Positions 1-10,005 of a stretch of 64,000 bases of DNA are shown here, one piece after another (the stretch's first letter is position 1; every line of letters begins with the position of its first letter). A program made the translations under genes and the position numbers. Origin of the DNA: Haloarcula mannanilytica (lineage in GTDB: Archaea; Halobacteriota; Halobacteria; Halobacteriales; Haloarculaceae); contig NZ_BIXZ01000001.1 in assembly GCF_005406125.1 (NCBI RefSeq), positions 434,001 through 498,000 on the forward strand, read 5' to 3'. The notes below the pieces were generated by a model. It made no database searches and had not been told where the DNA came from. It worked only from the letters and a program-made list of their open reading frames with translations.

Positions 1-93
1 GTCGCTGTCGGGGAAAACGTCGACGGGTTCGAACTCCTCGCCTGTGTTCGGTGCAACCGGGTCAAAGTCTGGTGGGGTTTCAGCGTCACTCAT
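1..93 (-). CDS. glpC: Anaerobic glycerol-3-phosphate dehydrogenase subunit C, N-terminal fragment
   Basis: Only the first 31 codons lie in the window; the gene continues past base 1. The visible protein starts [13 protein letters not shown] and is acidic, with no catalytic motif yet. Identity rests on position: its ATG overlaps the glpB stop by four bases, in the order glpA-glpB-glpC known from haloarchaeal and bacterial operons. GlpC is the iron-sulfur, membrane-associated subunit that passes electrons from GlpAB to the quinone pool. Its CCG and iron-sulfur motifs would lie outside the window, so the name is inferred from synteny. Confidence 0.75.
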   Translation of the reverse strand, partial: MSDAETPPDFDPVAPNTGEEFEPVDVFPDSD

Positions 94-1364
94 CGTGCCT
101 CCTGTGCGGCGCGCTGGCCCGCCGCGTAGCCTGTGGCAATCGAGATACCGCTGCCGGATTTCTCGGCGGCAAAGTCGTAGCCGCCAAGCACCGAGCCGGC
201 GGCGCGTAGGTTCTCGAACTCTCGGTCGTCGCTCGCATCGAGGGGGCGCAGATCGTCGTCGGTCGCCACGCCGTAGCGGGCGAACTCGTGATCGCCGAAC
301 AGTTCGCCCTCGAACCAGTCGTAGCGGTCCGCGGCGTGGGGAACGTGGCAGTCGAAGACGGGTTCGTACACGCCCTCGCGGTCGGATTCGACGCCCTTGC
401 CGACGAAGCCGCCGGTCGCGAGGACGTATTGGTCGGCGCTGTTGGGGATTTTTGCGCCGTTTTTCTCGATGAACACCCGCTCGATGCGGTCCTCGCCCTC
501 GAAGTCGACGACGGGGTTGCCGGTCTCGATACTCGCACCGGCCGCGTCAAGCGCCGAGAACAGGGCGTCCTCAAGCCGGAGACCGGGCAGCGACGGCGGT
601 CCCATCGGCACCTCGAACACGTCGACGCCGAGGTGGTCGCCGAGCGAGTCGCGGATAGCGCCGGGGTGGTCATCTCCTAAAATCGCCGGGAAGCCGACCC
701 GTTGTTCACCCTCAAGTAGGGGGTTTACGCGCTGGGCCAGCGCCTCGCGGGCCGGAACCATTCGCCCGCGGACCGCCACCTCGCTGTTGGTATCGAGCAG
801 TTTGGCATATCGCGTGACCTTCGCGTCCGCTCGCAGGTCACCGGGGAACCGGATTGTCTCACCCCGAACGTCGAACGGGACGCCCGTCGCGTCGAGGTGG
901 GCGGCGACGTGAGGCGCGTCGAAGTCGACCATCTCCTCGATGCCGACGAGCAGCGTGTCCCGGGTATCGCTGGCGAGGCCGGCGCTGGCCCCGGCCGGGT
1001 AGCGGGCGGTCGGCTTGATGCTTCCGCCGTGGGTCGGCAGGAGCGCGTTGGTGTCGGTGTGGTCGCCCTCGTAGGTCGGGACCGCGTCATCGAACAGCGC
1101 CATCGCTTCGCGGACCGTCCCGACACCCACTTTTCGGTAGGGGTGTTTATCGGGCAGCGACGGAATCGCCTCGTACGGGTCGGTCAACGGGCCGTCGCCG
1201 TCAGGTGTGTAGCCAAGCACGTCAACAAGGCCCGACGCCTGCCGGAGCGTGCTCTGCTTGTAGGAGACCAGTCGCACGTCGGCCCCGTCGCGGGCAGCCG
1301 AAAGCGCGCTGGTCAAGCCCGCGAGGCCGCCGCCGACGACGAGTACCTCCGACTCAATAGCCAT
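90..1364 (-). CDS. glpB: Anaerobic glycerol-3-phosphate dehydrogenase subunit B
   Basis: The 424-residue protein begins [16 protein letters not shown], a dinucleotide-binding GxGxxG fold, which places the start at 1364; a longer frame reaching 1433 has an arginine-rich prefix unlike a real N-terminus. In known GlpABC enzymes GlpB is the flavoprotein subunit of the membrane-linked complex that oxidises sn-glycerol-3-phosphate to dihydroxyacetone phosphate. A C-terminal stretch ending [16 protein letters not shown] resembles the second FAD-contacting region of such flavoproteins. It overlaps the glpA stop by 11 bases and the glpC start by 4, so the three are translationally coupled. Confidence 0.9.
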
Positions 1365-3084
1365 CTGTCCCTCCGTCGGCGGCCACGTCCGCGCTGTCGA
1401 CGCTGCCGCCCGTCTGTCCGCGGCCCGAGTCAAAGGCCGAGAAATCGACGGGGTCGCCGTCCGCCGGGTCCTGGTCGCGGTTCTGTGTCGTTGCGTGCAG
1501 CGCGTAGTTCAGCGCGGCCTGGGAGAGTTGTTCGCCCCAGAGAGCATGGCGCTGGCCCTTCCAGCGCTCTTGGAGCAGTTCGTCCCAGGCCTCGCGGACG
1601 ACAGCCTCGTCGTACTCCGAGTGGAGTTCACTCGCCATCCGATGGGAGCAGAAACCACCCTGGCAGTTGCCCATCGACGCGCGGGTGCGGATGCGGACGG
1701 CGTTGAGGTCCGACCCGGACCCCTCGATGGCGTCGTGAATCTCGGCACGGGTGACGCCTTCGCACTCACAGACCGTCGGGTTCGGGCCGTCGGTTGTGAG
1801 CACCTCGTCAGCGCGGGAGCCGAGTCGCTCGACGCTCCGGCGGCCGATTGGCGAGCGGAGGCCGAACTCGTCCATGTAGTCCCGAAGGACCGAGAAGTCC
1901 TCGCTGCCGGGCAGGGGCACGTCGGCGGTTCGGCAGTCGGCGTCGATACCGAACTTCCCGCAGACGTGGTCGGCGATCTGCTCGCCCATCATCCGGTAGG
2001 TGGTGAACTTCCCGCCGACGATGCTGGTCATGCCGGGCAGGTCGTCGCGCTCGTCGTGGTCAAGCAGGAAGAAATCTCGCGTGATGTCCGTCGGGTCGTC
2101 GCTGCCCACGTCCGGCGGTTCATACAGCGGGCGCACGCCCCAGAACGAGCGGATGGTTCGGGCGTCTTCGAGCATCGGAATCAGCTCCGAGAGGGTGTCG
2201 ATCATCATGTCGACCTCCCACTGCTCCTCGGGATAGTCCTCGGGGTCCTCGACCTCCTCGTCGGTCGTGCCCAAAATTGCGGTCGTCTCGTGGGGCACGA
2301 CGATGTCGGCGTCGCCCTTCGGCCGACAGCGGTTGATGACAGTGTCGACCTGGCGGATGTTCATGATGGTCATGACACCCTTGGAGGGCCGGACCTCGAT
2401 GTCCAGTCCCGCCATGTCACCGATGCGACCGGCCCACGCGCCCGTCGCGTTCACGACGTAATCGGCGCGAATCTGCTCGGTTCCGCCTTCGGTCCCGTGG
2501 ACACGCTTCCCGGGACCGGAGTCGTGTTCAACCTCGATACCGACGACCTCGCCGCTCTCCACAAGCAGGTCAGTGACTTTACTATGGGTCTCGATGCGTG
2601 CGCCGTGTTCCTGTGCGCTCGCGGCGTTGGCGACCACCAGCCGGAACGGGTCGATGGCCCCGTCGGGGACGGAGATGGCCTTGTCGATGTCTTTCGCCAG
2701 GTGTGGCTCCATGGCGCGGGCCTCCTCGCCCGAAACGACCTCGGCGGGGATGCCACACTCCTCACAGCCGCTGAGCTTCTTCTGGAAGTACTCCTCTGAG
2801 TCCTCCGGTCGCTTGACGAACAGGCCGCCGGTCATCTCCACGCAGTGACTGGCGATGTCCCGCAACACGCGGTTCTCCTCGATGCACTCGGTCGCACTGG
2901 CCTGGTCCGAAACGGCGTACCGCCCGCCACTGTGGAGCAGCCCGTGCATCCGACCGGTGGTCCCGTGGGTCAGGTTCCCCTGTTCTACGAGGGTCACGTC
3001 GAGCCCGCGCATCGCGAGGTCCCGCGCGATGCCCGCCCCGGTCGAACCGCCGCCGATGACGGCGATGTGTGGTGTCGGTCCCAT
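1354..3084 (-). CDS. glpA: Anaerobic glycerol-3-phosphate dehydrogenase subunit A
   Basis: The 576-residue protein opens with an FAD-binding motif ([19 protein letters not shown], residues 6-24) followed by [16 protein letters not shown], typical of the GlpA/GlpD family. The C-terminal part has a BFD-like [2Fe-2S] cysteine set, CECEG and GNCQGGFC, seen in GlpA but not in aerobic GlpD. It is the catalytic subunit converting glycerol-3-phosphate to dihydroxyacetone phosphate. It is the first gene of the minus-strand glpABC operon and diverges from the transducer-UgpB fusion gene. Length is normal for the family. Confidence 0.95.
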
Positions 3085-3392
3085 CTATCTTTCCGTGGGT
3101 TTGGAGCGCATACACTTCACTTTACCGTTGGCGGCTTCTAGGTAGTAAATTTTCTATGTAATCATGTAGAATACCAGAATCCACTATTGGAATTTGTGCC
3201 CACACAACACATTATGTTTCGCTGAACAGTCTGCTGGACCACTGAACCCAGAAAGACAGATTCGGCAGATACAGGCCATATTCCCTGATTACTACGGCCC
3301 ATGTAGTCATCTCCTGACGAATCTGACCACCGAGAATTTGTTACTACTAACCTCAAGTCGACAGTAACTATTATGTATTTTGATAGTTGATT
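3085..3392. other. Divergent intergenic region, glpA and transducer
   Basis: About 350 bases separate the divergent glpA (minus) and transducer (plus) genes. The region is richer in A and T than its surroundings. AT-rich boxes that could be TATA elements are near 3143-3153 (minus strand) and 3365-3380 (plus strand). No conserved reading frame was recognised in 3085-3392. It probably holds the control elements for both glycerol operons, but no regulator site could be named. Confidence 0.5.
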
Positions 3393-3437
3393 ATGGCCGA
3401 AGCACGTTGGCGGTTCGGCCAACGGGAGCGACAATGA
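3393..3437 (+). promoter_or_regulatory. Possible 14-codon leader ORF overlapping the transducer start
   Basis: ATG at 3393 opens a frame encoding MAEARWRFGQRERQ and ends at TGA 3435-3437. This stop overlaps the downstream ATG (3434-3436) in the ATGA arrangement common for translational coupling. The product is basic, unlike haloarchaeal proteins in general, so it would act as a leader rather than as a functional protein. An AT-rich box sits about 25-30 bases upstream, so a leaderless transcript could begin at this ATG. Translation is unproven. Confidence 0.35.
3395..3424 (+). promoter_or_regulatory. Two mutually exclusive hairpins in the leader
   Basis: GGCCGAA (3395-3401) can pair with TTCGGCC (3414-3420), and CGTTGGC (3405-3411) can pair with GCCAACG (3418-3424). 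The second arms share bases 3418-3420 and the pairs interlock, so both cannot form as simple stems at once. The structure lies inside the short leader ORF and just ahead of the GGGAG and ATG of the transducer gene. Ribosome movement over the leader could choose between them. This is an inference from base pairing alone. Confidence 0.4.
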
Positions 3438-5974
3438 GTAAATGGAACCCATTTGATTCGGAAGACGACCGGTCTGACGTGGGACAGACCGACGGCGGTC
3501 GAAACGAGTCGGAGCAGACACCGCCGACGGGAGACGCCCAGTCGGAAGAACCGGAAATCCAGGCGAATCGGACAGCGCGAGACGCCGAACAGGCGGAGCT
3601 AGAAGCCCGCTGCCAGCAACTGGCGGCAGAACTCGAACAGGAGCGGGCGGACCGCCGCGCGCTCGAAACCGCCGTCGACGAACTCACCGAAGTCGTCAGC
3701 GCGAACGCCAGCGGCGATCTCACAGCGAAACCGGAGCAACCGCCGACTGAGGCCGCCGAACCGCTGTACGACGCATACGACGGATTGCTCCGAGAGTGGA
3801 CCGACACCGTCGACCGGATGGCGTCGTTCAGCGAGCAAGTGACCGCCGCGACCGAACAGGTCGACACACGCCTCGATTCAGTCAAATCCGCCAGCCGGGC
3901 AGTCAGTGGCGCTGTGGGTGAGATTTCGACGGGCTCGGACGAGCAGCGCGACCAGATACAGTCCATTTCCGACGAGATGCGGGACCTTTCGGCAACCATT
4001 GAAGAGATAGCGAGTGCCGCCGACGAGGTCGCGGATACCTCACGGGAAGCCAACGCCCGGGGCGCGTCCGCACAGGAGTCAGCGGCGGCGGCGATGACGA
4101 CTCTCGAAGGGCTGACCGACAGCGCCGAGGCGACCGTCGACAAGGTCGAGCAATTGAACGACGTGCTTGCCGACATCGAGGAGATTGCGGGGTTCATCAC
4201 CGATGTCGCGGACCAGACGAACATGCTGGCGCTGAACGCCAACATCGAAGCCGCTCGGGCGGGCGAGTCCGGCGACGGGTTCGCTGTCGTCGCTGAGGAG
4301 GTCAAAGCCCTCGCAAACGAGACGAAGGAGGCCACTGACGAAATCGAGGCCTCCATCCAGGACGTTCACGACCAGGCCGACGCGACGGTCGAGGAGATGT
4401 ACGACACCAGAGAGAGCGTCGCGGAAACCCGCTCGTCGGTCGCCAGTGCGCTCGATGAGCTGGATGCCGTCGTCTCGATGGTCGAGGACGTGGACGCAAG
4501 CGTTCAGGAAATCGACGAGGCGACGGATACGCAGGCCGAATCCACACAAGAGGTCGTGTCGATGGTTGACGACGTTAAGGAGATAAGCGCTCGGACAGCC
4601 GAGGAAGCGGCCGTCGCCGCTGATGCCGCAGCGGACCAGACGACGGAACTCGCGGAGGTGTCGACGCGGGTCTCGACGCTGACCGAGCGGGCCGAATCGC
4701 TCGATGCGTCCCTGGACGCCTTCGAACTCGTGACCGGCGCGTCGGCGGCTGGCAAGAACGAAACCGTCGTCGAATTCTGGCACGCGATGGGCGGCGAGAA
4801 GGCACTGCTGCTGGAAGAACTCGTCCGTGAGTTCGAGGCACAGACTGACGGTATCAGCCTCGCCTTGCGGTCAAAAGGGAGCTACCGCGGGACCCTCGAC
4901 GCGACGCTAAAGGCGGCCGAAAACGGCGACCCACCCGCCATCGCGCAGATATTCGAGATCGGGACCACGCGTGCGCGTGACAGTGGTCAGTTTAGACCCG
5001 TCGAGGAGCTTCTCCCGGGAGCGCACATCGACTCGCTGCTCGACCCGGTGACCAACTACTACCGCTTCGACGGGACGCTTCACTCGCTCCCGTTCAACGC
5101 GTCGAACCCGGTATTGGCCTACAACCGCGATGCGTTCCGGCAGGCGGGGCTTGACCCCGACTCGCCCCCGGAAACGCTTGCTTCGGTCCGGAGCGTAGCC
5201 GAACGGCTCGTAGACAGTGGTGTCGTAGATGTCGGAATCACGTTCGCGAACTACTCGTGGTTCGTCGAGCAGTGGTTCGCCGAGGCCGACCAACCCCTCG
5301 TGGACCAGCACAACGGACGGGCTGGGTCGCCCACGGAGAGCTACCTTGACGGTCCGCTTGCCCGAGACGTGTTCGAGTGGTGGCAGGGCCTCGAAGCGGA
5401 TGGGCTGTACCATGACCCGGGCATCGAGGCCAGAGGCGCGGCTCGGACCCATTTCTTCGAGGGAGACTCCGCGATGTTGATCGACTCTACCTCCTCTCTG
5501 AACAGCATCGAAAGCGGTGCCGATTTCGACGTAGGAACCGGTCGATTTCCGGTTCTCGACGACCGGACCGGCGTCCTCGTCGGCGGCGCGTCTCTCTGGG
5601 TGGGTGATGCGGTTTCCGAGGTCGTCCACGACGCCGTCGCCGAGTTCCTCACCTGGCTGACCGAACCGGGCCAACAGCGCCGATGGCACCGGGAAACCGG
5701 GTATTTCCCGGTCCACGAGGAGGCGATTCCGCAACTCCGGTCGGCGAACTGGTTCGAACAGAATCCGCAGTACCGGACGGCATTCGACCAACTTATGCAG
5801 ACGCGCGACACCACGGCGACACGTGGCGCACAGATTGGGCCGTTTGATACGGTTCGGACGGTTATCGAGGACGCCATCGACAGTATGGACGGCGTGGATT
5901 CGGTCCCGTCTGCGCTTGACCGACTCGATACGCAGGTCGGAAAACAGCTCGAACGGTACGAATCCGGGCAGTAA
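3434..5974 (+). CDS. Soluble chemotaxis transducer fused to a UgpB-like glycerol-3-phosphate-binding domain
   Basis: The 846-residue protein starts MSKWNPFDSE and has no signal peptide, twin arginine or membrane span, so it should be cytoplasmic. Residues 1-90 are acidic and coiled; a HAMP-like stretch (ANASGDLT) follows. Residues about 110-430 are a methyl-accepting signalling domain with the tip DQTNMLALNANIEAARAGE. From about 440 to the end it is a solute-binding protein closely like bacterial UgpB: FWHAMGGEKALLLEE, PPAIAQIFEIGTT, WFVEQWFAEA, VGGASLWV and WHRETGYFPV all have UgpB counterparts. Domain order is reversed relative to normal transducers (sensor at the C-terminus). It lies between glpABC and glpK. 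It may sense internal glycerol-3-phosphate; the ligand is inferred. A start at 3380 is possible but less likely. Confidence 0.9.
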   Translation: MSKWNPFDSEDDRSDVGQTDGGRNESEQTPPTGDAQSEEPEIQANRTARDAEQAELEARCQQLAAELEQERADRRALETAVDELTEVVSANASGDLTAKPEQPPTEAAEPLYDAYDGLLREWTDTVDRMASFSEQVTAATEQVDTRLDSVKSASRAVSGAVGEISTGSDEQRDQIQSISDEMRDLSATIEEIASAADEVADTSREANARGASAQESAAAAMTTLEGLTDSAEATVDKVEQLNDVLADIEEIAGFITDVADQTNMLALNANIEAARAGESGDGFAVVAEEVKALANETKEATDEIEASIQDVHDQADATVEEMYDTRESVAETRSSVASALDELDAVVSMVEDVDASVQEIDEATDTQAESTQEVVSMVDDVKEISARTAEEAAVAADAAADQTTELAEVSTRVSTLTERAESLDASLDAFELVTGASAAGKNETVVEFWHAMGGEKALLLEELVREFEAQTDGISLALRSKGSYRGTLDATLKAAENGDPPAIAQIFEIGTTRARDSGQFRPVEELLPGAHIDSLLDPVTNYYRFDGTLHSLPFNASNPVLAYNRDAFRQAGLDPDSPPETLASVRSVAERLVDSGVVDVGITFANYSWFVEQWFAEADQPLVDQHNGRAGSPTESYLDGPLARDVFEWWQGLEADGLYHDPGIEARGAARTHFFEGDSAMLIDSTSSLNSIESGADFDVGTGRFPVLDDRTGVLVGGASLWVGDAVSEVVHDAVAEFLTWLTEPGQQRRWHRETGYFPVHEEAIPQLRSANWFEQNPQYRTAFDQLMQTRDTTATRGAQIGPFDTVRTVIEDAIDSMDGVDSVPSALDRLDTQVGKQLERYESGQ

Positions 5975-5986
5975 CGGCGGTCTACC

Positions 5987-5996
5987 CCTTTCTTTA
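5987..5996 (+). terminator. Pyrimidine/T-rich archaeal terminator candidate
   Basis: A T-rich run, CCCTTTCTTT, lies a dozen bases after the transducer stop codon, as is usual for archaeal termination without a required hairpin. It separates the transducer from glpK, which has its own promoter-like region. Confidence 0.35.
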
Positions 5997-6058
5997 CTAT
6001 CTAAACATCACCATTAGTAATCTTTATAATGGTTCAATATGTTGTTTACTGTCAAGGT

Positions 6059-6082
6059 GGTAGCTTTCATAAATAAGCTACC
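6059..6082 (+). promoter_or_regulatory. Perfect inverted repeat over the glpK TATA box
   Basis: GGTAGCTT (6059-6066) and AAGCTACC (6075-6082) form a perfect 8-base inverted repeat around TCATAAAT, which reads as a TATA element about 33 bases ahead of the glpK ATG. A protein bound here would block TBP, so this is a good repressor operator candidate for glycerol-responsive control. The regulator is not identifiable from the window. Confidence 0.55.
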
Positions 6083-6103
6083 TCCACCACGGAGAACACA
6101 ACA

Positions 6104-7636
6104 ATGGCAGACACATACGTTGGCGCAATCGATCAGGGAACGACCGGGACTCGCTTCATGGTATTCGACCACAGCGGTCAGGTCGTTGCGAACGCCTACG
6201 AGAAACACGAACAGATCTATCCGGAGCCCGGCTGGGTCGAACACGACCCCGTCGAAATCTGGGAGAACACGCAGGAAGTCGTCACGCAGGGGTTGGCTGA
6301 CGCGGGTGTCGGTGCCGAACAGCTGGAGGCGCTTGGCATCACGAACCAGCGCGAGACGACGATCGTCTGGGACAAGGAGACCGGCAAGCCGGTCCACAAC
6401 GCGCTGGTCTGGCAGGATCGACGGACCACCGACCGCGTCGAGGAGATCCAGGAGGAGGACAAAGTCGAGTGGATCCGCGGCAAAACCGGGCTGGAATGTG
6501 ACGCCTACTTCTCAGCGACCAAGACCGAGTGGATCCTCGACAACGCCGAACCGCTGAAGATGCAGAGCTCCCGCGGGGCCGACCTCCGCGACCGTGCCGA
6601 GGACGGCGAGCTCCTGATGGGCACCATCGACGCGTGGCTCATCTACAAGCTCACCGGCAACCACATCACGGACGTGTCGAACGCATCGCGGACGATGCTG
6701 TACAACATCCACGATATGGAGTGGGATGACGAACTCCTCGACGAGTTCGGCGTGCCGAAGTCCATGGTTCCCGAAGTTCGACCGTCCTCCGACGAGAGCC
6801 TGTACGGCCACACCGACGGCGACGGCTTCCTCGGCGAGGAAGTGCCAGTTGCGGGCGCGCTGGGTGACCAGCAGGCCGCGCTGTTCGGCCAGACCTGCTT
6901 CGATAAGGGCGACGCGAAAAACACCTACGGCACCGGCGCGTTCTACCTGATGAACACCGGGTCCGAAGCAGTCGCCTCCGACAACGGCCTGCTTACGACC
7001 GTCGGCTTCCAGATGTCCGGCGAGCCCGTCCAGTACGCGCTGGAAGGCTCTATCTTCATCGCCGGCGCGGCCATCGAATGGCTCGAAGATGTCGACCTCA
7101 TCAACAACGCCGCTCAGACGGCAGAACTGGCTCGCTCCGTGGAGTCCACGGACGGCGTCTACATGGTGCCGGCCTTCACGGGTCTCGGTGCCCCGCACTG
7201 GGACGGCCGCGCACGCGGGACGATTGTGGGAATGACTCGCGGGACCCGGAAAGAGCACATTGTGCGTGCCACCCTGGAATCCATTGCGTACCAGACCCGT
7301 GACCTCGCGGAAGCGATGGAAGAGGACTCCGGTGTCGAGATGACGACGCTGCGAGTCGACGGCGGTGCGGTCAAGAACAACTTCCTCTGTCAACTCCAAT
7401 CTGACATCATCCAGACGGACATCGCCCGCCCACAGGTCGACGAGACCACCGCGCTCGGGAGCGCCTACGCCGCTGGCCTCGCCGTCGGGTACTGGGATAC
7501 CGTCGACGAACTCCGGGACAACTGGCAGGTCGACGAGGAATTCTCGCCGGAGATGGACGCCGGGAAGGCCGACAAGATGTACTCCCGCTGGGACGACGCC
7601 GTCGACCGGTCCCGCGACTGGGCACAGGAGGAGTAA
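6104..7636 (+). CDS. glpK: Glycerol kinase
   Basis: The 510-residue FGGY-family kinase begins MADTYVGAIDQGTTGTRFMVFD, the phosphate-loop region of glycerol kinases. GITNQRETT and WQDRRT (substrate-binding region), GALGDQQAALFGQ and a C-terminal LRVDGGAVKNNFL are all family signatures. It phosphorylates glycerol to sn-glycerol-3-phosphate, the substrate of GlpABC and the inferred ligand of the upstream transducer. Length equals the family norm. It ends three bases before the next gene, a membrane protein, forming a two-gene unit known in other haloarchaea. Confidence 0.97.
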   Translation: MADTYVGAIDQGTTGTRFMVFDHSGQVVANAYEKHEQIYPEPGWVEHDPVEIWENTQEVVTQGLADAGVGAEQLEALGITNQRETTIVWDKETGKPVHNALVWQDRRTTDRVEEIQEEDKVEWIRGKTGLECDAYFSATKTEWILDNAEPLKMQSSRGADLRDRAEDGELLMGTIDAWLIYKLTGNHITDVSNASRTMLYNIHDMEWDDELLDEFGVPKSMVPEVRPSSDESLYGHTDGDGFLGEEVPVAGALGDQQAALFGQTCFDKGDAKNTYGTGAFYLMNTGSEAVASDNGLLTTVGFQMSGEPVQYALEGSIFIAGAAIEWLEDVDLINNAAQTAELARSVESTDGVYMVPAFTGLGAPHWDGRARGTIVGMTRGTRKEHIVRATLESIAYQTRDLAEAMEEDSGVEMTTLRVDGGAVKNNFLCQLQSDIIQTDIARPQVDETTALGSAYAAGLAVGYWDTVDELRDNWQVDEEFSPEMDAGKADKMYSRWDDAVDRSRDWAQEE

Positions 7637-7639
7637 CCC

Positions 7640-8764
7640 ATGATAGACAGTCTGCTCCTACAGATTCCGGTCTTTGGGATGAACGTCCCGGACCTCCTGC
7701 TGTTGATAATCGCCGCCTTCGCTGGCGGTGCGTTCGGCGCGGCACTCGGTGCGCTCCCGGCGTTCTGTTTCACCGGCTTCATGGTTATCGCCGGCCAAGC
7801 CGTGGCGATTCTCCGCGGGAGCCTCGCCGGCCAGCTCGGTGAACTCAGCTCCGGCGCGCTCGCGACCGGCGTGACCGGCGCAATCGCGTTCGGTCCAGTC
7901 TTCGGCCCGCACGTCTCCTTCGCCGGCGGTGCCGCGGCGGCCGCCTACGCCGCCAAGAGCGACGGGATGTACGAGCCCGACGACGGCGACTACCACCCAG
8001 CAAAGGACATCGCCTACGCGCTGGGTACGCGCCCGGACATCCTCGCAGTCGGTGGGCTGTTCGGTATCTTCGGGATGGTCGTCCGCCAGGTTTCCGGCGG
8101 GCTCGCGCTCCCGTGGGACCCGATTGCGATGGGCGTCGTCCTGTCGGCTGTCGCCCACCGTATCGCGTTCGGCTACCCCCTTATCGGCGCTGGCAGCCGG
8201 AACATCCTCGACATGTCGCCGTTCGAGAGCGGGGAAAAACGCGTCGCCACGGACGGCGGCAGTGAGACGGCGACCGACGGCGGCACTGTCGAGTCGTACC
8301 GCCTGGCCGTCGAGCCGTGGCTCCCTCACCAGTACAAGTGGACGAACGTCGCGATGATCGGCCTCGTCGCCGGCCTGCTCGGCGGCTGGATCGCCATCCA
8401 GACCGGCAGCGCCTTCCTCGGCTTCGGCATCTCCGCCGCGAGCCTGACGTTCCTGAACCTCGGCGTCGAGAAGATTCCGGTGACCCACCACATGACCCTG
8501 CCCGCGAGCACGGCCGCGCTGGCAGTGTTCGGTGGCACGCCCGAAACCGGATCGATGGCAGCCGTCATCGCCCTCATCGTCGCCGGCGTGTTCGGTGCCT
8601 ACGGTGCCCTCGCCGGTGAGGTCATCCAGCGCGTCTTCTACGCGCACTCGGACACGCACTTCGACCCGCCCGCGGCGGCTATCGTCGTCGGAACGTTTAC
8701 TATCGCAATTCTGGCAATCGCGGGCGTCTTCGGCAGCGCCTCTTGGGTCCCGCTCCCGGTGTGA
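7640..8764 (+). CDS. Polytopic membrane protein linked to glpK, putative glycerol facilitator
   Basis: The 374-residue protein has many hydrophobic, glycine- and alanine-rich spans (for example LLLLIIAAFAGGAFGAALGA near the N-terminus) and a charged loop around residues 190-220 rich in G, D and T. It has no NPA boxes, so it is not an aquaporin/GlpF-type channel. Its start lies three bases after glpK, and a homologous pair in Haloferax has been described as glpK with a putative glycerol facilitator. Role in glycerol entry is inferred from this linkage only; transport of another polyol or phosphate ester is possible. Confidence 0.8.
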   Translation: MIDSLLLQIPVFGMNVPDLLLLIIAAFAGGAFGAALGALPAFCFTGFMVIAGQAVAILRGSLAGQLGELSSGALATGVTGAIAFGPVFGPHVSFAGGAAAAAYAAKSDGMYEPDDGDYHPAKDIAYALGTRPDILAVGGLFGIFGMVVRQVSGGLALPWDPIAMGVVLSAVAHRIAFGYPLIGAGSRNILDMSPFESGEKRVATDGGSETATDGGTVESYRLAVEPWLPHQYKWTNVAMIGLVAGLLGGWIAIQTGSAFLGFGISAASLTFLNLGVEKIPVTHHMTLPASTAALAVFGGTPETGSMAAVIALIVAGVFGAYGALAGEVIQRVFYAHSDTHFDPPAAAIVVGTFTIAILAIAGVFGSASWVPLPV

Positions 8765-8829: not shown

Positions 8830-10005
8830 ATGGACATTGAAGCGAGAATCAAGCGTCGACAACGCCGGAACGGTGAGCCACGGCTCATTCAGGACTACGA
8901 GGCCATCTCACCGGTCGTTCACATCGAGGAACCGGCCGATCGCGGCCCGGTCCTCGAACGGCTGCTCGACCATCTCGACCCGGTGTTCGACGGGCAGTTA
9001 CCGCCGAACGCGTACGTCTACGGCCCGCACGGCTCCGGGAAATCCGCCGTTATCACGGCGCTTTTCGCCAATTTAGAACAGCTCCCGACAGCACAACAGG
9101 CGATTATCCACACGACGACCCGCGCACAGCCACCGACCTCTCCGTCGTTCGTCTACGTGAACGCCCGGGAGACCGCAAGCGAGTTCGCGTTTTACCACGC
9201 GGTGCTGGATTCGCTGGTGGAGGAGTCAGTCCCGGAACACGGGATCGGGACGGAGACGCTCAGGTCTCGCCTCCATGAACTGGTTCGAGAGCAACGAACC
9301 GGGGTCGTCATCGCGGTAGATCACGTCGGCGAGCCGGAGAGCATCGACGCCTCCTCGCTTGTCGACCTGTTTGCCGGCCTGCCGAGCAACGTCAGCTGGC
9401 TGGCTATCGGTCGTGACGACCCGTCGACGACAGAGCTGACGCGGTACACCGCCGAATCAATCGGCATCGACCGCTACCAGCGCCAGATGCTCGTCGACGT
9501 GTTGATGACCAGAACCTCGAACGGGCTGGCTCAGCAGGGACTCGATCACGGCCTGGCACGGCAAATCGCGGACTGGGCGGACGGCAACGCCCACGACGCC
9601 CTCGCGGCCCTGTTCATCGCGGCGGAGCTGGCAGAGGAAAACGGACAGGACCGCATCACGCAGGCGAACGTGGACACGGCCATCGAGGAAGTACCAGTTC
9701 CCTGCGTGTCGCTTGGCATCGTCCTCTCCCTGCCGACGAACCGACAGGCCGTCCTCAGAGAGCTCATCGACCTGGAGGACAGCGAGCGCTCGTCGGTGAC
9801 AGCGACGACGGAGGCAATCGCGTCCGCCCAATCACTCGACCTATCAGCCGGGACGGTCAAGCGGTTCCTCTATGAGATGGCCGAGTCCGGCGTCGTCGAC
9901 CGCGTCGAGGCGACGACGACAAACGGCCAGGGCCGCCCCCCGAGCCGGGTCGAACCGCGGTTCCCGCCGACGGCGTTCCGTCGGCTGTACGACCTGCGAC
10001 AGTAA
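8830..10005 (+). CDS. Orc1/Cdc6-like AAA+ ATPase with winged-helix end, divergent
   Basis: The 391-residue protein has a Walker A motif (YGPHGSGKSAV, about residues 63-73) and the sensor and lid arrangement of archaeal Orc1/Cdc6 proteins, ending in a winged-helix-like region (TVKRFLYEMAESGVVDRV). The Walker B position reads VVIAVDHVGEPE, with His where replication initiators normally carry Glu or Asp after the first Asp. Hydrolysis may therefore be altered. Haloarchaea carry many such paralogs, most not tied to an origin; no origin repeats were seen beside this one. It is likely a regulatory or accessory paralog. Confidence 0.75.
   Translation: MDIEARIKRRQRRNGEPRLIQDYEAISPVVHIEEPADRGPVLERLLDHLDPVFDGQLPPNAYVYGPHGSGKSAVITALFANLEQLPTAQQAIIHTTTRAQPPTSPSFVYVNARETASEFAFYHAVLDSLVEESVPEHGIGTETLRSRLHELVREQRTGVVIAVDHVGEPESIDASSLVDLFAGLPSNVSWLAIGRDDPSTTELTRYTAESIGIDRYQRQMLVDVLMTRTSNGLAQQGLDHGLARQIADWADGNAHDALAALFIAAELAEENGQDRITQANVDTAIEEVPVPCVSLGIVLSLPTNRQAVLRELIDLEDSERSSVTATTEAIASAQSLDLSAGTVKRFLYEMAESGVVDRVEATTTNGQGRPPSRVEPRFPPTAFRRLYDLRQ

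Follow-up and report, generated by a model that had tools for sequence, protein, structure and literature searches.

A gene in the glycerol locus of Haloarcula mannanilytica, within a 64,000-nucleotide stretch of genomic DNA (the window), joins an MCP signaling domain and a UgpB-type ligand-binding domain in a single reading frame. The encoded protein probably acts in the cytoplasm as a chemoreceptor that senses a glycerol phosphate, mainly the glycerol-3-phosphate (G3P) made by GlpK, and it would serve metabolism-dependent taxis to glycerol. Related fusions form a clade found in the Halobacteria. We give about even chances to the broader reading that they are a haloarchaea-wide receptor family for this kind of taxis, in which an MCP captured the binding protein of an ABC transporter, the export signal was lost, and the domain came to read the earliest product that glycerol catabolism makes inside the cell.

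Domain organization of the fusion protein

The fusion gene begins with an ATG at position 3434, and its stop codon occupies positions 5972-5974 (Table 1). The first-pass annotation of the window had placed it between glpABC and glpK, and this placement holds. The reverse-strand genes glpB and glpA to its left and the forward-strand gene glpK to its right all score above their NCBIfam cut-offs, and glpC is assigned by reading. The fusion stop codon and glpK are separated by 130 bp, and glpK is followed by a gene for a membrane protein and then by one for an Orc1/Cdc6-like AAA+ protein. None of the glp neighbors described here encodes an ABC transporter.

Table 1. Features of the fusion gene and its surroundings (positions refer to the window)
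Feature	Position	Residues	Strand	Basis or remark
glpC start, continues beyond window	1..93		-	Assigned from reading iron-sulfur/CCG-type sequence
glpB, G3P dehydrogenase subunit B	90..1364		-	Above NCBIfam cut-off
glpA, G3P dehydrogenase subunit A, removes proposed ligand	1354..3084		-	TIGR03377, 783.8 bits
MCP-UgpB fusion transducer, cytoplasmic, 846 aa	3434..5974		+	ORF, Pfam, hydropathy
Degenerate HAMP-like stretch	3671..3832	~80-133	+	Preceded by a coiled coil
MCP signaling domain with conserved hairpin tip	4115..4585	228-384	+	Pfam
Short flexible linker, MCP helix end to UgpB domain	4727..4762	432-443	+	Predicted model
UgpB-type ligand-binding domain, 410 aa (ligand binding predicted)	4742..5971	437-846	+	Sequence and predicted structure
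Pocket residue span	4883..5857	Y484, E508, S557, N606, W609, S685, G718, Y757, R808	+	HMMER mapping
glpK, glycerol kinase, makes proposed ligand	6104..7636		+	TIGR01311, 721.6 bits
Membrane protein, unannotated, adjoins glpK across genera	7640..8764		+	Gene neighborhood

The signaling domain is complete, as the first-pass annotation had claimed. It matches Pfam MCPsignal (PF00015) with E = 6e-40 and 139 bits against a cut-off of 34.6, and it retains the whole hairpin tip motif DQTNMLALNANIEAARAGESGDGFAVVAEEVK, whose residues are invariant across the fusion family. A Pfam SBP_bac_8 match (E = 5e-32) covers residues 462-781 in the same frame. The HAMP-like stretch of the window copy falls below the Pfam HAMP cut-off, and a Halohasta relative scores above it at the same place.

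The further claim that this transducer has neither an export signal nor a membrane span is borne out. A scan of the window protein found no Tat motif, no lipobox, and no signal peptide motif. Its peak 19-residue hydropathy is 1.33 and it therefore has no membrane span. With its sensor C-terminal of the signaling domain, the protein has the makeup of a cytoplasmic chemoreceptor. A model of the full-length protein (pLDDT 71, pTM 0.50) was used for secondary structure only because of its low confidence, and residues 432-440 of the linker have pLDDT values below 50 in the predicted model.

The host genome has the chemotaxis machinery: it encodes 15 MCP domains above the PF00015 cut-off, including that of the fusion, together with four CheF matches. 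It also has 12 SBP_bac_8 matches (11 above the cut-off), and the fusion is the only one of these that lies in a frame longer than 550 aa.

Fold and pocket of the UgpB-type domain

Roughly 400 C-terminal residues had been described as strongly resembling UgpB, and both sequence and predicted structure agree with this description. The best PDB sequence matches of residues 437-846 are the UgpB proteins of E. coli (E = 3e-55) and Phaeobacter (E = 2e-51). An AlphaFold2 model of the domain, built with 48 relatives, has a pLDDT of 94.5, and we compared it with known structures by Foldseek and VIA-align 2. The top structural matches are all UgpB (Z = 54.2 for 6x84, 49.0 for 4aq4, and 48.2 for 9lff), and the next family scores 41.7. 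The model superimposes on these three structures with an rmsd of 1.4 to 2.9 across 398-405 residues. The closest of them, 6x84, is the W169S/W172S mutant of UgpB. Among solved structures, UgpB is thus the nearest relative by both fold and sequence. The window protein is nevertheless not a UgpB transport protein: it has no export signal, it scores 216 bits against the 411-bit cut-off of the NCBIfam UgpB equivalog NF008211, and one residue of the ligand clamp is missing.

The ligand contacts of Phaeobacter UgpB have been published. Tyr64, Ser143, Ser266, and Tyr342 contact the phosphate, Glu88, Gly303, and Arg393 contact the hydroxyls, and Trp188 and Trp191 form a clamp (PMC12718374). When these positions are mapped through HMMER alignments, the window protein has all of the phosphate contacts (Y484, S557, S685, and Y757) and all of the glycerol-hydroxyl contacts (E508, G718, and R808). 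In the clamp, Trp191 is kept as W609 and Trp188 is replaced by N606. Eight of the nine glycerophosphate-contact sites are therefore kept, and these eight are invariant among 52 fusion sequences, compared with 66 invariant sites in the 410 positions overall (p = 2e-6). This conservation rules out a decayed pocket, although one Trp has been lost.

The first clamp position is occupied by Asn (42 sequences) or Thr (10 sequences) in the fusions, and each of the nine solo UgpBs compared from haloarchaea has Asn there. The clamp change therefore predates or accompanies the haloarchaeal branch rather than the fusion event. E. coli UgpB needs the equivalent residue (Trp169/188) for G3P. The M. tuberculosis UgpB (4mfi, 6r1b) has the same fold and also lacks the first clamp Trp, with Leu205 in its place. 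This protein is exported, unlike the fusion, and it binds glycerophosphocholine and not G3P (PMC7034087). In the comparison with the UgpB pocket that the first-pass annotation had proposed, the domain thus holds up apart from one residue: the fold, the phosphate contacts, and the glycerol contacts agree, and one clamp Trp does not. Together these residues favor a glycerol phosphate as the ligand without settling which one, and with the clamp Trp lost the specificity for G3P that we infer is unproven.

Distribution and origin

The earlier suggestion to seek the same fusion in other genomes was productive. A scan of one genome per species returned 70 loci with a related domain. At 49 of these loci, all other than that of the window, an MCP and a UgpB-type domain share one frame, and two more such fusions are cut by contig ends. 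Every fusion locus with a stated taxon belongs to the Halobacteria. The bacterial relatives found, within a scan that covers close relatives, are all single-domain proteins, and none is an MCP-UgpB fusion. Phylogenetic analysis groups the fusions in one clade, adjacent to the solo UgpBs of haloarchaea, with a single change of state (support 94), and the fusion therefore arose once. Tat and lipobox motifs are present in the solo proteins of haloarchaea.

In a survey of 391 Halobacteria genomes that are at least 90% complete, with fusions recognized by a C-terminal domain in a long frame, the fusion is present in 71 genomes from 14 genera. One of these copies is broken. This decayed copy, in another genome of the same genus (G188, positions 6010-7097 of locus L094), lies at the same glp site. 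A frameshift disrupts its UgpB portion, and no MCP sequence was found there. Both halves of the fusion have a dN/dS of 0.04-0.10 among Haloarcula copies, and the gene is under purifying selection. These ratios and the 49 other loci rule out a local oddity or a sequencing artifact.

The Halohasta and Halonotius fusions have a hydrophobic segment near the N terminus, ahead of the HAMP and MCP domains (the start codons are uncertain). Since this segment is N-terminal of both domains, the C-terminal domain stays on the same side of the membrane as the MCP.

Association with glpK and cheF

All 71 fusion genomes contain glpK, compared with 343 of the 391 genomes overall, and all 71 contain cheF, compared with 239 of 391. 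Thirty genomes have cheF but no glpK, and none of them carries the fusion (p = 1e-5, with kinship not corrected for). Genomes that have only a solo UgpB are often without cheF (for example G005, G045, G046, G047, G107, G193, G203, and G247). The co-occurrence with glpK spans 14 genera, which are too few to be decisive alone at the genus level.

Proximity to glpK is stronger evidence than this co-occurrence. In 27 of the 71 genomes, representing 7 of the 14 genera, no more than 10 kb separates the fusion from glpK. The fusion is at least 120 kb away on the same contig in 15 genomes and on a different contig in 29. The order in Haloarcula and Halomicrobium is a divergent glpA, followed by the fusion, glpK, the membrane protein gene, and the orc gene. 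In Halohasta, Halonotius, and genome G054, a divergent glpA is followed by glpK, the membrane protein gene, the orc gene, and then the fusion. The fusion of SHR40 is beside an orc gene and near a second glpK, and in G076 it is 3.6 kb from glpK. The link to glycerol catabolism therefore extends beyond one genome. The first-pass annotation had also asked whether the fusion is always near glp genes. It is not, since no glp gene is close to it in Halorubrum and most Haloferax, where it is located elsewhere. Either the fusion was ancestrally part of the glp block and then moved, or it arrived there repeatedly. Both histories fit a working link to glycerol.

Proposed function and alternatives

Outside the fusion gene, the closest counterparts of the UgpB domain in the host genome are only 24% and 20% identical to it, so a UgpB-type importer is not an evident source of G3P. 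For this reason G3P would be expected to come from GlpK, and lipid turnover is another possible source. Other Haloarcula species have both the fusion and a solo UgpB.

The following account, including the ligand, the direction of the response, the route of the signal, and glycerol taxis itself, is inferred. Glycerol would enter the cell and be phosphorylated by GlpK to G3P, which would be trapped inside until GlpABC removes it. The C-terminal domain would work as a clam-shell binding protein of the UgpB type that faces the cell interior, and its two lobes would close when G3P binds in the cleft. Closure could be transmitted along the short linker (about residues 428-443), reach the end of the C-terminal MCP methylation helix, and change CheA activity, and this change would reach the archaellum switch through CheY and CheF. 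If so, the cell would steer by its inner glycerol phosphate level and thus by the glycerol that is being metabolized.

An unlikely but credible alternative is that the domain senses sn-glycerol-1-phosphate (G1P), from which the archaeal lipid backbone is made, or a larger glycerophosphodiester released by lipid turnover, and that it reports membrane-lipid metabolism or phospholipid recycling rather than glycerol intake. Phaeobacter UgpB takes both G1P and G3P in one pocket (PMC12718374), and a UgpB that binds glycerophosphocholine differs from one that binds G3P by the loss of the clamp Trp (PMC7034087). Every archaeon needs G1P, yet the fusion is missing wherever a chemotactic genome has no glpK (30 genomes), and it clusters with glpK and not with lipid genes. 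It is improbable that the protein is an organophosphate or phosphate-status receptor that reads a pool of G3P or glycerophosphodiesters imported by a Ugp-type transporter. This idea draws on the domain family, which is that of the phosphate-scavenging Ugp system, and on the solo UgpBs of many fusion genomes, other Haloarcula included. However, the genome of the window has no solo UgpB, and a G3P importer would have no need of glpK, the conserved neighbor.

With ligand binding and taxis both predicted, the domain might also be a structural or protein-binding appendage that senses no ligand, or the signaling output might be something other than swimming. We judge this quite improbable. The pocket residues are invariant far above background, and cheF, which encodes an archaellum-coupling protein, accompanies the fusion in every genome and is often missing where there is only a solo UgpB. 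An extracellular C-terminal domain, as in an ordinary UgpB, scarcely merits consideration even though characterized UgpB proteins are all exported. This placement is already contradicted by the window protein, which as read from its sequence has neither a signal nor a span, and by the position of the hydrophobic segment in Halohasta and Halonotius. A cytoplasmic receptor for glycerol phosphate remains our preferred reading.

Comparison with known systems

In brines, Dunaliella supplies glycerol that is a major source of carbon. Metabolism-dependent taxis has long been discussed and, to our knowledge, the receptors for inner metabolites are mostly unknown. Halobacterium salinarum has a cytoplasmic arginine transducer, Car. 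Like the fusion it is a soluble haloarchaeal transducer for an internal metabolite, but its ligand is arginine, and we know of no UgpB-type domain in it. In the BasT/BasB and CosT/CosB systems of the same species, a separate, exported lipoprotein docks on a membrane transducer. These pairs also use a haloarchaeal solute-binding protein as a taxis sensor, whereas the binding domain of the window protein is fused and internal. The UgpB proteins of the CUT1 family (4aq4, 6x84, and 9lff) share the fold (Z = 48-54), 28-32% identity, and eight of the nine ligand contacts with the fusion. In contrast to them, the fusion is not exported, has no adjoining transporter genes, lies behind an MCP domain, and has Asn in place of one clamp Trp.

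A published survey recognizes class V archaeal cytoplasmic chemoreceptors, which have a C-terminal ligand-binding domain, and gives SBP_bac as a rare sensor type (PMC9680633). As described there, class V receptors share with the fusion a soluble protein, the signaling domain, and a C-terminal sensor. Because that survey lists both this class and this sensor type, the MCP-UgpB architecture may be counted in it. The fusion protein does not appear in its main text, which also gives no ligand, topology, or connection to glycerol genes. Our literature search found no description of the fusion protein, which the supplement of the survey may list, and the literature found describes no glycerol receptor in haloarchaea. 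The new element appears to be an inward-turned UgpB-type sensor tied to glpK. If this is true, the binding protein of a transporter has been redirected to the cell interior as part of a chemoreceptor that gauges metabolism, through the product of the first enzyme, instead of the nutrient outside. The idea is directly testable, because the genes for the putative receptor and for the enzyme that makes the candidate ligand are neighbors in genera that are open to genetic work.

Other features of the glycerol block

A conserved TATA-like sequence, TTTATAAT, occurs in front of glpK and suggests that this gene has its own promoter. We therefore do not assume that the fusion and glpK are cotranscribed. 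The glpK leader also contains an inverted repeat (GGTAGCTT...AAGCTACC, window positions about 6057-6082). Its counterpart in locus L025 is GAGTCTTG...CAAGACTC. The two arms have changed in concert, a pattern that favors an RNA hairpin over a fixed operator. A search of window positions 3000-6300 with Rfam gave no match.

The pentamer AGTAA is present in seven copies in the intergenic regions 3085-3433 and 5975-6103 (478 bp), compared with 36 copies in the whole 64-kb window. Some of the intergenic copies are conserved in Haloarcula and Halomicroarcula, and the motif is absent upstream of the fusion in Halohasta, Halonotius, and G054. It is a weak, post hoc candidate for an operator shared by glpA, the fusion, and glpK.

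The multi-span membrane protein has no Pfam or NCBIfam match, and its gene is 3' of glpK in most genomes examined. It may take part in glycerol uptake or in some related process. The Orc1/Cdc6-like AAA+ protein (window positions 8830-10005, forward strand) scores below the cut-off of TIGR02928. Its gene adjoins glpK and the membrane protein gene across genera, and in Halohasta, Halonotius, G054, and SHR40 (L093) it is also next to the fusion. Although it resembles a replication initiator, this protein may be a regulator.
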